From Streptomyces sp. NBC_00162 (GTDB taxonomy: Bacteria; Actinomycetota; Actinomycetes; Streptomycetales; Streptomycetaceae): a stretch of DNA of 64,000 bases. Location of the stretch: positions 3,782,001-3,846,000 of the forward strand of contig NZ_CP102509.1 in the NCBI RefSeq assembly GCF_024611995.1, read 5' to 3'. A model generated the notes under the pieces. That model made no database searches and was not told where the DNA came from. It worked only from the letters and a program-made list of their open reading frames with translations. Below, piece by piece: positions 1 through 62,042 of the stretch. A program made the position numbers and the translations under genes. Each line of letters starts with the position of its first letter. The stretch's first letter is position 1.

Positions 1-616
1 TCGGGGACAGCCCCGCTCCCCGGTAGAGGAAGTGCTCCAGGACCTGCTGGCCGTGCGTGGAGTGCATCACCTCGGGGTGGTACTGCACGCCGTACAGCTT
101 CTTCTCGTCGTTCTCGAAGGCCGCGACCGGGACGACGTCGGTCGACGCGGTCACGGTGAAGCCCTCGGGGGCGGCGGAGCAGGCGTCACCGTGGGACATC
201 CACACCGACTGGTTCTCGGGGGTGCCCTCGAAGAGGGTGGAGCCGGCCTTGGAGACGGCCAGCGGGGTGCGGCCGTACTCGCGGGCGCCGGTGTTGTCGA
301 CCTGGCCGCCGAGGGTGACCGCCATCAGCTGGAAGCCGTAGCACATGCCGAAGACGGGGACGCCTGCCTCGAACAGGGAGCGGTCGAGCTGCGGGGCACC
401 CTCCTCGTACACGGAGGACGGGCCGCCGGAGAGGATGATCGCCTTGGGGTTCTTCGCCAGCATCTCGGCGACGGGCATCGAGCTCGGCACGATCTCGCTG
501 TAAACCCGTGCCTCGCGGACGCGGCGGGCGATGAGCTGGGCGTACTGGGCGCCGAAGTCGACGACGAGAACCGTGTCCGGGGCGCTGTCGTGGGCGGCGG
601 AGGGTGCTTCTGGCAC
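1..616 (-). CDS. guaA: GMP synthase (glutamine-hydrolysing), N-terminal part, cut by window edge
   Basis: GuaA converts XMP to GMP using ATP and glutamine. Only the first ~205 codons are in the window; they cover the class I glutamine amidotransferase domain. Visible are the start of that domain ([18 protein letters not shown]), the nucleophile motif FGMCYGFQ (family form GxCYG) and the His/Glu motif GVQYHPEV. The GTG start at 616 follows GGAAGG by 7 nt and gives the usual short N-terminal extension ([11 protein letters not shown]). A possible -10 TAGAAT lies on the minus strand at 655-660. The ATP-pyrophosphatase and dimerisation domains lie beyond position 1. It is divergent from the chorismate mutase unit. 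The window also holds guaB and guaB3, so most of the GMP branch is here. Confidence 0.95.
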
Positions 617-703: not shown

Positions 704-733
704 TTGGCCCGGAGGGGGACGGAAGGTAATAAT
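704..733 (+). promoter_or_regulatory. Promoter of the chorismate mutase leader transcript
   Basis: TTGGCC at 704-709 and TAATAAT at 727-733 are 17 nt apart, a good match to the housekeeping sigma-70 consensus. The expected transcription start is at about 739-741, which is the ATG of the leader peptide, so the mRNA would be leaderless. This is read from the sequence only; no start site has been mapped. Confidence 0.6.
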
Positions 734-740
734 CCGTTCC

Positions 741-809
741 ATGCGCAAGCAGCTGAGCTTCCTCTTTACCTATGGCACCGGCCGGTCCGGTCGCCATGGG
801 TCCTCGTGA
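741..809 (+). CDS. Candidate leader peptide of an aromatic amino acid attenuator (22 aa)
   Basis: A 22-codon open frame lies between the promoter at 704-733 and the hairpin at 834-871. Its residues 7-11 are Phe-Leu-Phe-Thr-Tyr (codons TTC CTC TTT ACC TAT). TTT and TAT are rare in this genome, where C is strongly preferred in the third position, so their use together is striking. The peptide carries exactly the two end products of the pathway that chorismate mutase commits to. There is no Shine-Dalgarno at normal spacing, but the promoter places the 5' end at the ATG. The inference is that ribosome stalling at Phe or Tyr codons controls the downstream hairpin. The frame is also open upstream (antisense to guaA), so coding is argued from context, not length. 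Confidence 0.6.
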
Positions 810-833
810 TGCTCGCTTGAGCCACTGAACTTC

Positions 834-871
834 CCAGAGCGCCCCGGTCCGACAGGACCGGGGCGCTCTGG
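834..871 (+). terminator. 17-bp hairpin, candidate attenuator terminator before chorismate mutase
   Basis: Positions 834-850 and 855-871 are a perfect 17-bp inverted repeat with the 4-nt loop GACA. It is followed by GCGTTTCC, so the U-tract is poor, as is common in Streptomyces terminators. It lies 24 nt after the leader peptide stop and 43 nt before the chorismate mutase start, which is where an attenuator terminator belongs. A competing pairing is possible between CCGGTCC at 782-788 and GGACCGG at 855-861 (7 bp), which would break the hairpin, but I could not find a long, clear antiterminator. Confidence 0.6.
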
Positions 872-913
872 CGTTTCCGCTCCTGTCGCAACGAACCACA
901 GGAGACGAAGACC

Positions 914-1177
914 ATGACCACGATCGCCACCACCCCCGAGCAGCTCATCGCCGGTTCCCGCGAGCGCATCGACGCCCTCGACGACCGGATCATCGGGCTG
1001 ATCCAGGAGCGGATGGCCGTCTCGACGGTCATCCAGGAGGCCCGGATCTCCTCCGGCGGCCGCCGGGTGCACCTGTCCCGCGAGATGGAGGTGCTCTCGC
1101 ACTGGAGCGACGCCCTCGGAAAGCCCGGCACCACCCTCGCCATGACCCTGCTGGAGCTGTGCCGGGGCCGCGTCTGA
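914..1177 (+). CDS. Chorismate mutase, monofunctional AroQ type
   Basis: It rearranges chorismate to prephenate, the first step towards phenylalanine and tyrosine, in the cytoplasm. The 87-residue protein is the normal size of a stand-alone AroQ helical domain. It shows the N-terminal helix RERIDALDDRIIGLIQERM, then VIQEARISSGGRRVHLSRE, which matches the conserved Arg-containing segments of the AroQ family. The ATG start has GGAG 9 nt upstream (901-904). It has its own unit: promoter at 704-733, leader peptide at 741-809 and hairpin at 834-871 precede it, suggesting control by aromatic amino acid supply. No prephenate dehydratase or dehydrogenase domain is fused, and none is nearby. Confidence 0.92.
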   Translation: MTTIATTPEQLIAGSRERIDALDDRIIGLIQERMAVSTVIQEARISSGGRRVHLSREMEVLSHWSDALGKPGTTLAMTLLELCRGRV

Positions 1178-1443: not shown

Positions 1444-3096
1444 CTACGCGCGCCCGGTGGCCCGGCGGCGGAACGCCAGGAACACCGCGCCGCCGGCGGC
1501 GACCAGTGCCGCGCCGGCGATCAGGAGCGGACCGGCGGTGACGCCGGTGTTCGCCAGGCCGCCCTGCGCCGTGGCGGCGGTGCTCGCGCTGGTGCTCGCG
1601 CCGGCGCTCGGCGTGGCCGACGGGGTCGCGGAGCCCGTCGGCGCCGGGGTGCCGGTCGTGGTCGGGCCCGGGGTCGGCGTGGTCCCGCCGTCCTTGGCGT
1701 TGATCACGAAGGCGGCCTTGTTGTTGGCGTGGCTCGGGTCCCAGTCCTGCGGCTTGGTGCCATCCGCAGTCCACTGGCCGACCGAGATGGAGCCCGTGGA
1801 GTCCGCCACGACCTTCTCGATCTTCAGCTCGAACGGGTAGGAGACCTTCTCCGTCTCCCCCACGATGTGGGTGGTTCCGCAGAAGTAGCGCGGGGCGCCC
1901 AGCTTCTGCTCGCGGTAGCTGCCGTCGGCGTTGACCCCGGAGCACTGCTCCGGAGCCTTCGTCACCTTCGCGCCCTGCGGGATCACGATGTCCGTCCGGG
2001 CGACGTCCTCACCCGAGCGCAGGTAGGCGACCCACGCCGGGCCCTTGTTCTCGAAGCCGAAGTCGGCCTTCACCGTCTCGCCGGCCTTGCCCTTGAGGGA
2101 CACGGCACGCGCCACGAAGTCGGCGGTGTTCTTCGTCTGGAAGTCGAACTCGTGCTGGTTGTCCGACGGGTCGATGTCCGCGGACAGCGGGCCGGCCTTG
2201 GCCTCCCGCTCGACGACGGTCAGCTTCTTGCCCGTGCTCGGCCGCTCCTGCTTCTGCGAGGTCTTCGGCTGGGCGCCGGCCGCGTGCACCGCGTAGGTCA
2301 TCCCGTCGATGAAGGCGTGCGGCTCCGCCTTGAGGGTCAGCGCGCTCTTCACCTCGTAGACCGTGCCCGGCTTGTACTCGCCGTCGAGGACGCACACCGT
2401 GGTGCCCCAGCCCGCGTTCCAGGGCCGGCCCGGGGTGTCGTTCTTGCTGTAGGAGCAGTTGTCGTACTTCTCGACCAGCCCGATGCCATGGGTGGTGTTC
2501 ACCTCCAGCGCCACGCCGTTGACGGACTCCGTGCCCGCGTTGGTGAAGACGATCGGCAGCGGCTGCGTCTCGCCCGGGGTCAGCTTCGCCTTGAGGGCGG
2601 CCGGCCCCAGCACCAGGTCGGGGCCGCCGACCTTGACCTTGGTGGTGGCCGGCTTGAAGGTGGCGCCGTCCGCCGTGCCGGTCATCGTCAGGTCGGCGAC
2701 CGTGCCGACCACGCTGTCCTTGCCGGCGGTGAGGTCCAGGGACACCACGTTGCTGCCGTGCGTCCAGATCGCCCAGTCCTTGCAGGTCACCTTCGCGGCG
2801 ACGAGGGTGCAGTCGCCGCCCCGGTCCTTGGGGAGCGCGACGTCGGCGACGCCCTTGAGCGGGCTCAGGTCGATCGTGAAGGTGCTCAGCCGGTCGAAGA
2901 CGCTGCCGGTCTCGTTCTCGACGCGGAACTCGACCGAGGTCTTCTTCGGCTGACCGCTCTGCCCGGGGTGCGGGCGCAGGCCGACCTCCGCCGGGCTGGT
3001 GAGCGTGAAGACGGGATCCGCGGCGTTCGCGGGGGCGGCGGCCAGACCGACGGCCGCCAGGCCGGCTGCCGCCAGCAGGGAGATGCGCTTTCTCAT
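1444..3096 (-). CDS. Secreted surface protein with LAXTG sortase anchor
   Basis: This is a 550-residue exported protein of unknown function. The start chosen (3096) gives a classical signal peptide: MRKRISLLAAAGLAAVG, then APANAA as the cleavage region. The body is rich in beta-type sequence and has conserved-looking Cys pairs (near DCTL, TCKDW, NCSYS, VCVLD, QCSG and FCGTT), suggesting disulphide-bonded extracellular domains. A Pro/Thr/Ser-rich stalk follows. Residues 514-518 are LANTG, then a ~20-residue hydrophobic segment and the tail RRRATGRA, which is the sorting signal used by class E sortases in Streptomyces (established for LAXTG substrates). No sortase gene is adjacent. A start 13 codons upstream is possible but would spoil the signal peptide. 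Confidence 0.85.
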   Translation of the reverse strand: MRKRISLLAAAGLAAVGLAAAPANAADPVFTLTSPAEVGLRPHPGQSGQPKKTSVEFRVENETGSVFDRLSTFTIDLSPLKGVADVALPKDRGGDCTLVAAKVTCKDWAIWTHGSNVVSLDLTAGKDSVVGTVADLTMTGTADGATFKPATTKVKVGGPDLVLGPAALKAKLTPGETQPLPIVFTNAGTESVNGVALEVNTTHGIGLVEKYDNCSYSKNDTPGRPWNAGWGTTVCVLDGEYKPGTVYEVKSALTLKAEPHAFIDGMTYAVHAAGAQPKTSQKQERPSTGKKLTVVEREAKAGPLSADIDPSDNQHEFDFQTKNTADFVARAVSLKGKAGETVKADFGFENKGPAWVAYLRSGEDVARTDIVIPQGAKVTKAPEQCSGVNADGSYREQKLGAPRYFCGTTHIVGETEKVSYPFELKIEKVVADSTGSISVGQWTADGTKPQDWDPSHANNKAAFVINAKDGGTTPTPGPTTTGTPAPTGSATPSATPSAGASTSASTAATAQGGLANTGVTAGPLLIAGAALVAAGGAVFLAFRRRATGRA

Positions 3097-3264
3097 GCAC
3101 CCGTTGACCAGTGGCCCCGCGTCGCGGTTGCACACTTCGCTGTGTGATCGAAACCACAGCCCGGGCCGCCGGATTCCGGTACAACCATCCGTGGCGACCG
3201 CCTGTCACTCATGTACCGCGGCGGGTACCGCGCTCGGAGGGGGAGCGCGGTACCCGCCCGGTCA

Positions 3265-61953: not shown

Positions 61954-62042
61954 GGTGTTACTCCTTCATATCTGCACCGGCCGTGTCAGGTACCGGTGTC
62001 AGTTCCCCCGAGGCGGATGCCGCGGGAAAGTCTTCGTACTGC

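Follow-up and report, generated by a model that had tools for sequence, protein, structure and literature searches.

The stretch of DNA analysed here, referred to as the window, comprises 64,000 nucleotides of the chromosome of Streptomyces sp. NBC_00162. Close to one of its ends, a promoter-like element, a short reading frame with aromatic codons and a strong hairpin precede a gene for chorismate mutase. In window coordinates, the features of this locus are as follows:

2–616, minus strand: N-terminal part of a divergent neighbour gene, outside the element, with a possible GTG start at 616 and a frame that is open to 748
704–709, plus strand: −35-like hexamer TTGGCC, as read from the sequence
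727–733, plus strand: −10 element TAATAAT, separated from TTGGCC by a 17-nt spacer
741–809, plus strand: leaderless-like leader peptide frame of 22 codons (741–806) with the stop codon TGA at 807–809
759–761, 765–767 and 771–773, plus strand: putative control codons Phe7 (TTC), Phe9 (TTT) and Tyr11 (TAT), as read from the sequence
768–801, plus strand: hairpin 1 (1:2), formed by strand 1 (768–781, which holds the Tyr codon) and strand 2 (787–801), −22.8 kcal/mol
784–850, plus strand: predicted antiterminator (2:3), 784–800 with 833–850, including a small inner hairpin at 804–828; a purely thermodynamic prediction
834–876, plus strand: terminator (3:4), 834–850 with 855–871 in a perfect 17-bp stem, then CGTTT; −41.7 kcal/mol for 833–871
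880–904, plus strand: possible small hairpin, tentatively placed, of CTCCTGT (880–886) with ACAGGAG (898–904) over the Shine-Dalgarno sequence
914–1177, plus strand: chorismate mutase of 87 amino acids, with a Pfam CM_2 match of 33.2 bits and 2qbv as best PDB match (E 4.9e-13)

An earlier sequence-only reading had already placed a chorismate mutase gene behind the hairpin, and the CM_2 protein at 914–1177 bears this out. Its closest solved structure is the intracellular chorismate mutase Rv0948c of Mycobacterium tuberculosis (2qbv), on account of which we take the product to be an enzyme of the AroQ-delta type. Within the genome, three proteins match CM_2, this one most weakly, and there are also two genes for type II DAHP synthase. 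The divergent neighbour resembles guaA by eye, and this name is tentative. No family of Rfam 15 matches the element at gathering score; the sole match in the window is an ordinary known element, the L17 actino/proteobacterial ribosomal protein leader RF03132 at 61972–62027 on the minus strand (66.3 bits). A further observation concerns the minus-strand frame at 1444–3135, which encodes a long, secreted-looking protein that ends in LANTG and a membrane-like segment and is sortase-anchor-like by eye; it has no Pfam match.

The promoter-like pair TTGGCC-N17-TAATAAT and an ATG at the expected start of transcription, both proposed in the sequence-only reading, are indeed found at this site. The AATAAT of the −10 element ends 7 nt 5' of the leader ATG at 741, and judging from the sequence, transcription should begin at or next to this ATG, yielding a leaderless transcript. 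Across 80 leaders including that of the window, a −10-like hexamer, loosely defined by A at position 2 and T at position 6, ends 5, 6 or 7 nt ahead of the start codon in 1, 50 and 29 cases, respectively, so that the placement for a start at the start codon is found in all 80 sequences; the promoter-to-ATG distance, which the sequence-only reading had wanted compared among relatives, is thus conserved. This hexamer reads CATACT in 51 of the 80, and TTG occurs within the −35 region in 58 of them, as opposed to 7.6% of random window positions. The spacing of the −10 element together with TTG at −35 is as expected for leaderless transcripts. In two related loci (L004 and L005), the DNA 5' of the promoter appears unrelated by eye and the leader is still attached to the gene, which suggests that the conserved block begins at the promoter.

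The 22-codon frame with Phe and Tyr codons, among them the rare TTT and TAT, likewise stands as it had been described: it occupies 741–809, and both codons are used at about 1% in the window, where, over 43 probable genes, TTT makes up 4 of 371 codons for Phe and TAT 4 of 333 for Tyr. The leader was recovered in 79 of 80 related records, the remaining one (L018, Streptomyces) being truncated where its contig stops. Among the 79, the name Streptomyces is attached to 77, and L009 and L072 are labelled only Actinobacteria bacterium. Conservation of the aromatic codons, which the sequence-only reading had put forward as a check, was observed in all 79 records that reach far enough, each of which carries a leader of the F-x-F-T-Y-G type, with Ser (L054) or Val (L060) replacing the first Phe in two cases. 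The block TTT-ACC-TAT-GGC is identical in 80 of 80 leaders (the 79 records and the window), a count slightly favoured by the anchor used for locating it, which tolerated two mismatches.

In the wider family, protein searches found relatives of the chorismate mutase in 133 of 200 genomes, and 67 had none at threshold. Upstream regions were fetched for 60 of these relatives, 42 from 15 other genera, 10 from divergent members of the same genus, four from weak matches in genus g14 and four from second matches in the own genus, and were compared with a covariance model, R1, that was built from 38 leaders. R1 matched 52 of the 60 regions over its full length at E <1e-7, including all 42 from other genera; the eight regions without the element by this model (L171–L178) are the four weak g14 matches and the four second matches in the own genus. 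Except for L170, which keeps the element but reads VFTQG with Gln in place of Tyr, all matched leaders (51 of 52) have a Phe-x-Tyr-Gly core that additional aromatic codons precede. Within the genus, a pattern for the region of hairpin 1 matches at least 48 of 61 genomes, though it misses the window's own variant.

Leaving out L170, which lacks Tyr, a set of 131 leaders was thus available, namely 51 from the wider family and 80 from the window and its closer relatives. Every one of them contains both Phe and Tyr codons up to the motif, at least three aromatic codons being present in 130, and hence both end products of the enzyme encoded downstream are represented among the codons throughout. 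Two codons ahead of Tyr, Phe is written as TTT in all 131 leaders, and Tyr itself as TAT in 130 of them. Trp is rare inside the aromatic cluster (3 of 131) and occurs behind the motif in 28 of 131 leaders, most of which belong to genus g7 (15 of 17) or to neighbours of it; there, a GTGW with its Trp behind the motif was noted in L119–L125, L127–L130 and other loci. Further downstream, the block that provides strand 2 is read in frame 1, 2 or 0 in 120, 7 and 4 leaders, respectively, which argues that selection keeps the RNA rather than the peptide in this part.

In its own genome, R1 has a full-length significant match at this site only. No Phe/Tyr leader was detected before six other genes of the genome (two for type II DAHP synthase, two for CM_2 proteins and two for PDT) when frames of 8–36 codons were sought in a region reaching as far as 500 nt past the upstream stop codon; the second PDT gene has one short frame with a single Trp upstream.

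At the level of the class, R1 found matches in 57 of 246 genomes; the home family accounts for 22 of these, and many of the other matches represent a bare terminator hairpin. An aromatic leader is lacking at L215 and L225, both full-length matches from beyond the family, and likewise at L226, a second match within the genus. A class-wide search for the chorismate mutase itself found 36 matching genomes outside the family, from which 16 loci were fetched; L255, with only 115 nt of upstream sequence, was set aside. The leader design, rewritten in sequence, precedes the orthologous gene in 14 of the 15 judgeable loci, which belong to eight other families; the nine families that carry it include a mycobacteria-like one. 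A strict scan found a leaderless-like aromatic frame and a strong hairpin within 450 nt in 13 of the 16 loci, the leader of L253 was seen only by a looser scan, and L262 of family f4 showed no leader by the scans of its upstream region. Applied to both strands of the window, the strict scan returned two aromatic leaderless-like frames, neither of them with a strong hairpin behind, and it misses the window's own leader since the −10 element of the latter reads AATAAT.

The aromatic clusters of these leaders differ from family to family: RRFFYGYR in f4, where the enzyme of L254 matches Rv0948c at E 5e-38, RFFYGYR in f35, SYFYYG in f37, FFFYG and YFYG in f31, RFYG in f21, RFYPD (VRFYPD) in f12, LFYG in f18, and TYFAG and EFFYAL in f14. 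In family f17, all 14 genomes with a match to R1 (loci L208–L212, L214, L216–L220 and L222–L224) have a leader that reads MQRNFWRFYGYRP or a variant thereof, or MRTA(FW/WS)FWYGDG; at least one genome of this family (G273) is devoid of a match. Downstream of the f17 leaders, which start 7–8 nt past a TATAGT-like box, lie a terminator and a gene for type I DAHP synthase, the product being assigned to Pfam DAHP_synth_1 in the two cases tested. The clusters of these leaders, FWRFYGY, FWFWYG and WSFWYG, contain Trp before Tyr in 14 of 14 leaders, as expected for an enzyme of the common pathway. Within the aromatic cluster, the putative control codons are mainly those for Phe and Tyr before chorismate mutase and those for Phe, Trp and Tyr before DAHP synthase.

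At the RNA level, region 730–913 (184 nt) folds with −97.7 kcal/mol (z −7.5), a value not reached by any of 200 shuffles. The perfect 17-bp hairpin noticed in the sequence-only reading is confirmed at 834–850/855–871, and compensatory changes, which had been named there as a check, were seen in relatives. In alignment A3, whose 57 sequences were fitted to the covariance model and which therefore leans toward the model, 96.4% of the terminator cells pair, versus 35–55% with partners slid, and 27 cells have changed on both sides, versus 7.3 in shuffled and 2–10 in slid controls. In alignment A1, which was made without structure, 30 cells have changed on both sides compared with 12.8 in shuffles, although these fall in only 3 pairs, no more than in shuffles (2.9). 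Among pairs that form in more than 85% of weighted sequences, the top covarying column pair belongs to the terminator and displays four pair types; ranks 2–6 belong to none of the proposed helices and may reflect lineage. Although the T run behind it (CGTTT) is short, the hairpin, with its 17-bp stem and compensatory changes, has the character of an intrinsic terminator.

A hairpin at the place of hairpin 1 was found in all 18 folded representatives from 10 families, 15 of them upstream of chorismate mutase and three upstream of DAHP synthase, in searches whose window was set by us at the last aromatic codon. Hairpin 1 varies little in the home family, and in other families the hairpin that coincides with the final aromatic codon of the cluster is built of different base pairs. 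As judged from sequence comparison, the frame, its codons, the covarying terminator, hairpin 1 and the linkage to the gene are thereby established. As a separate observation, many Streptomyces leaders (L022, L041, L066 and others) can form a long helix of leader codons 3–6 with codons 17–22 that encloses hairpin 1, and its two sides seem, by eye, to change together.

Regarding the antiterminator, the sequence-only reading had found no obvious fold and had considered a switch by ribosome occlusion. A longer pairing of strand 2 with the 5' arm of the terminator (784–800/833–850) is predicted, so that occlusion need not be invoked. The 7-bp pairing 782–788/855–861 put forward at that time was rejected as antiterminator, as it uses the 3' arm of the terminator and is shorter than 784–800/833–850, which engages the 5' arm. 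When strand 4 was absent and the ribosome edge lay 13 nt downstream of the Tyr codon's first base, strand 2 was predicted to pair with the terminator 5' arm in 17 of 17 sequences. Moving a ribosome codon by codon along the window leader gave 7.6–10.1 expected 2:3 pairs with the A site at codons 5–12, which bracket the Phe and Tyr codons; the pairing was highest at codons 10–11 (Thr10 and Tyr11), dropped after codon 12 and was zero from codon 17, and 1:2 dominated with no ribosome on the leader. Two further family members gave similar maps, L121 retaining 4.8 expected 2:3 pairs with a ribosome stalled at Trp18. All 13 leaders tried from other families were predicted to form 2:3 at the aromatic cluster and to have lost it further along, eight with terminators found automatically and five with hairpins set by hand as the program had picked others; in the f17 leaders the pairing is already high from codons before the cluster, and in L263 it is already declining at the cluster.

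The 2:3 pairing has a median length of 13 bp and falls short of 8 bp in none of 90 unique sequences; GC-rich shuffles average 10.8. The native pairing is longer than in shuffles in 82 of 90 sequences, but its energy is better than the mean of the controls in no more than 64. Against shuffled strand 3 the average z is only −1.0, and a test in which strands 2 and 3 were swapped was negative for specific covariation (native duplex −20.01, swapped −20.03 kcal/mol). Moreover, at equilibrium with strand 4 included, the terminator stem is kept despite a stalled ribosome in the 18 folded sequences (shortened in L022), and the switch, if it works, must hence be kinetic, as in other attenuators. The terminator is supported by covariation and the antiterminator by thermodynamics, and the ribosome-driven switch is accordingly put forward as a prediction of folding models.

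Taken together, the element is very probably a leaderless ribosome-mediated attenuator that places an AroQ-delta chorismate mutase, the enzyme that commits chorismate to Phe and Tyr, under the control of charged tRNA-Phe and tRNA-Tyr. RNA polymerase would start at the leader ATG, presumably followed by a ribosome. With ample Phe and Tyr, the ribosome would reach the stop codon at 807–809 and cover strand 2, upon which the terminator at 834–871 would form and the gene would be off. If Phe- or Tyr-tRNA were short, the ribosome would stall at Phe7, Phe9 (TTT) or Tyr11 (TAT), thereby covering strand 1 and freeing strand 2 for the 5' arm of the terminator (784–800/833–850), so that the polymerase would read into the gene. 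Without translation, hairpin 1 would form and the terminator would win. Most likely, the enzyme would thus be made only when phenylalanine or tyrosine runs short.

Other explanations have to be weighed against the attenuator. The leader might act mainly on the ribosome-binding site of chorismate mutase via the stem 880–886/898–904 instead of on termination, and indeed 52 of 80 loci have 4 or more nt of the Shine-Dalgarno sequence within a predicted stem; this stem, however, is close to shuffled sequences in stability (mean z −0.86), and such translational control, which we consider unlikely, leaves a strong covarying terminator between leader and gene unexplained. The high conservation of FTYG in Streptomyces, which extends even to synonymous codons, would also suit an arrest peptide whose nascent chain stalls the ribosome on a metabolite rather than at hungry codons. 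Yet the residues ahead of the motif vary, other families keep only the aromatic cluster (RRFFYGYR, SYFYYG, RFYG and VRFYPD), and the C-terminal half of the leader is read in different frames, on which ground this highly improbable explanation was rejected.

It is equally hard to credit that the site is an unregulated leaderless short frame with a terminator that serves to produce an independent small RNA or small protein. The great strength of the terminator is in keeping with this notion, as is the so far purely predicted nature of the regulation. On the contrary, the frame is tied to one orthologous gene across nine families, stays with this gene in L004 and L005 despite the DNA upstream of the promoter being unrelated by eye, and has control codons that fit the pathway. 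The attenuator therefore remains the preferred interpretation.

Whether the attenuator is an ancient, class-wide device, in which the leaderless design accompanies AroQ-delta chorismate mutase in nine families, the cluster codons are rewritten per enzyme and one RNA reads both end products of the branch, is a matter on which we lean only slightly towards the affirmative; this leaning was marginally stronger before the Trp codons behind the motif in 28 of 131 leaders were considered. According to excerpts of one report, chorismate mutase in Corynebacterium glutamicum relies for its activity on complex formation with DAHP synthase, and Phe disrupts this complex (PMC11802643). If our interpretation is true, the RNA switch would add a transcriptional layer to the control of chorismate mutase in a class that includes antibiotic producers. 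The element would constitute a clear test case of a dual Phe/Tyr sensor and a handle on aromatic precursor supply in Streptomyces, and the Phe/Tyr versus Phe/Trp/Tyr clusters would provide a ready-made natural experiment on specificity.

A published description of this site was not found in the open-licence PMC literature without supplements, which leaves its absence from print unproven; the mycobacterial short-frame lists (PMC4974804, PMC9094748) are supplements and lie outside this search. A 2005 comparative study of actinobacteria states, in its first part, that no conserved structures were found for other amino acid pathways (PMC1262725), and the excerpted list for Corynebacterium diphtheriae comprises three leaders, trp, ilvB and leu (PMC5784534). 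An RNA-seq survey of Streptomyces lividans describes eight leader peptides (trpL, leuL, ilvL and others), which, as far as the excerpts go, resemble the window element in being mostly leaderless and in combining regulatory codons and hairpins before amino acid genes, but none of the eight is listed there for Phe, Tyr or chorismate mutase (PMC8079986).

For mycobacteria, Cys-rich leaderless short frames have, according to partial sources, likewise been proposed to sense an amino acid, though a different one and with other genes. A report by Canestrari from 2020, known by its title, is said to deal with these frames. Sequence relatedness to the window leader is, to our knowledge, lacking in pheL of Escherichia coli, which is not leaderless. 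This leader mediates Phe-codon attenuation before pheA, whose product has chorismate mutase activity (PMC11802643, in part); the pheA enzyme is bifunctional and its leader responds to Phe only, whereas the window element has both Phe and Tyr codons.

The nearest relative in print is aroR of C. glutamicum, a leader with a Phe-Tyr-Phe sequence that, as described in the excerpts, precedes aroF encoding DAHP synthase (PMC4046766, PMC11802643). Likened by description, both are aromatic leader peptides before a gene of the aromatic pathway in an actinobacterium, but aroR precedes DAHP synthase in Corynebacterium and the window element precedes chorismate mutase in Streptomyces; a DAHP synthase gene directly downstream, absent behind the window element, is found in the f17 relatives. 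As is predicted for the window leader, aroR is reportedly leaderless (Neshat, 2014). Transcription of the aroF operon increases under Phe limitation and, in the excerpted account, Tyr availability is without effect (PMC11802643), in contrast to the family of the window element with its nearly invariant TAT. The mechanism is a classical one; what is new is the gene, the breadth of its distribution and an aromatic cluster that fits the product.
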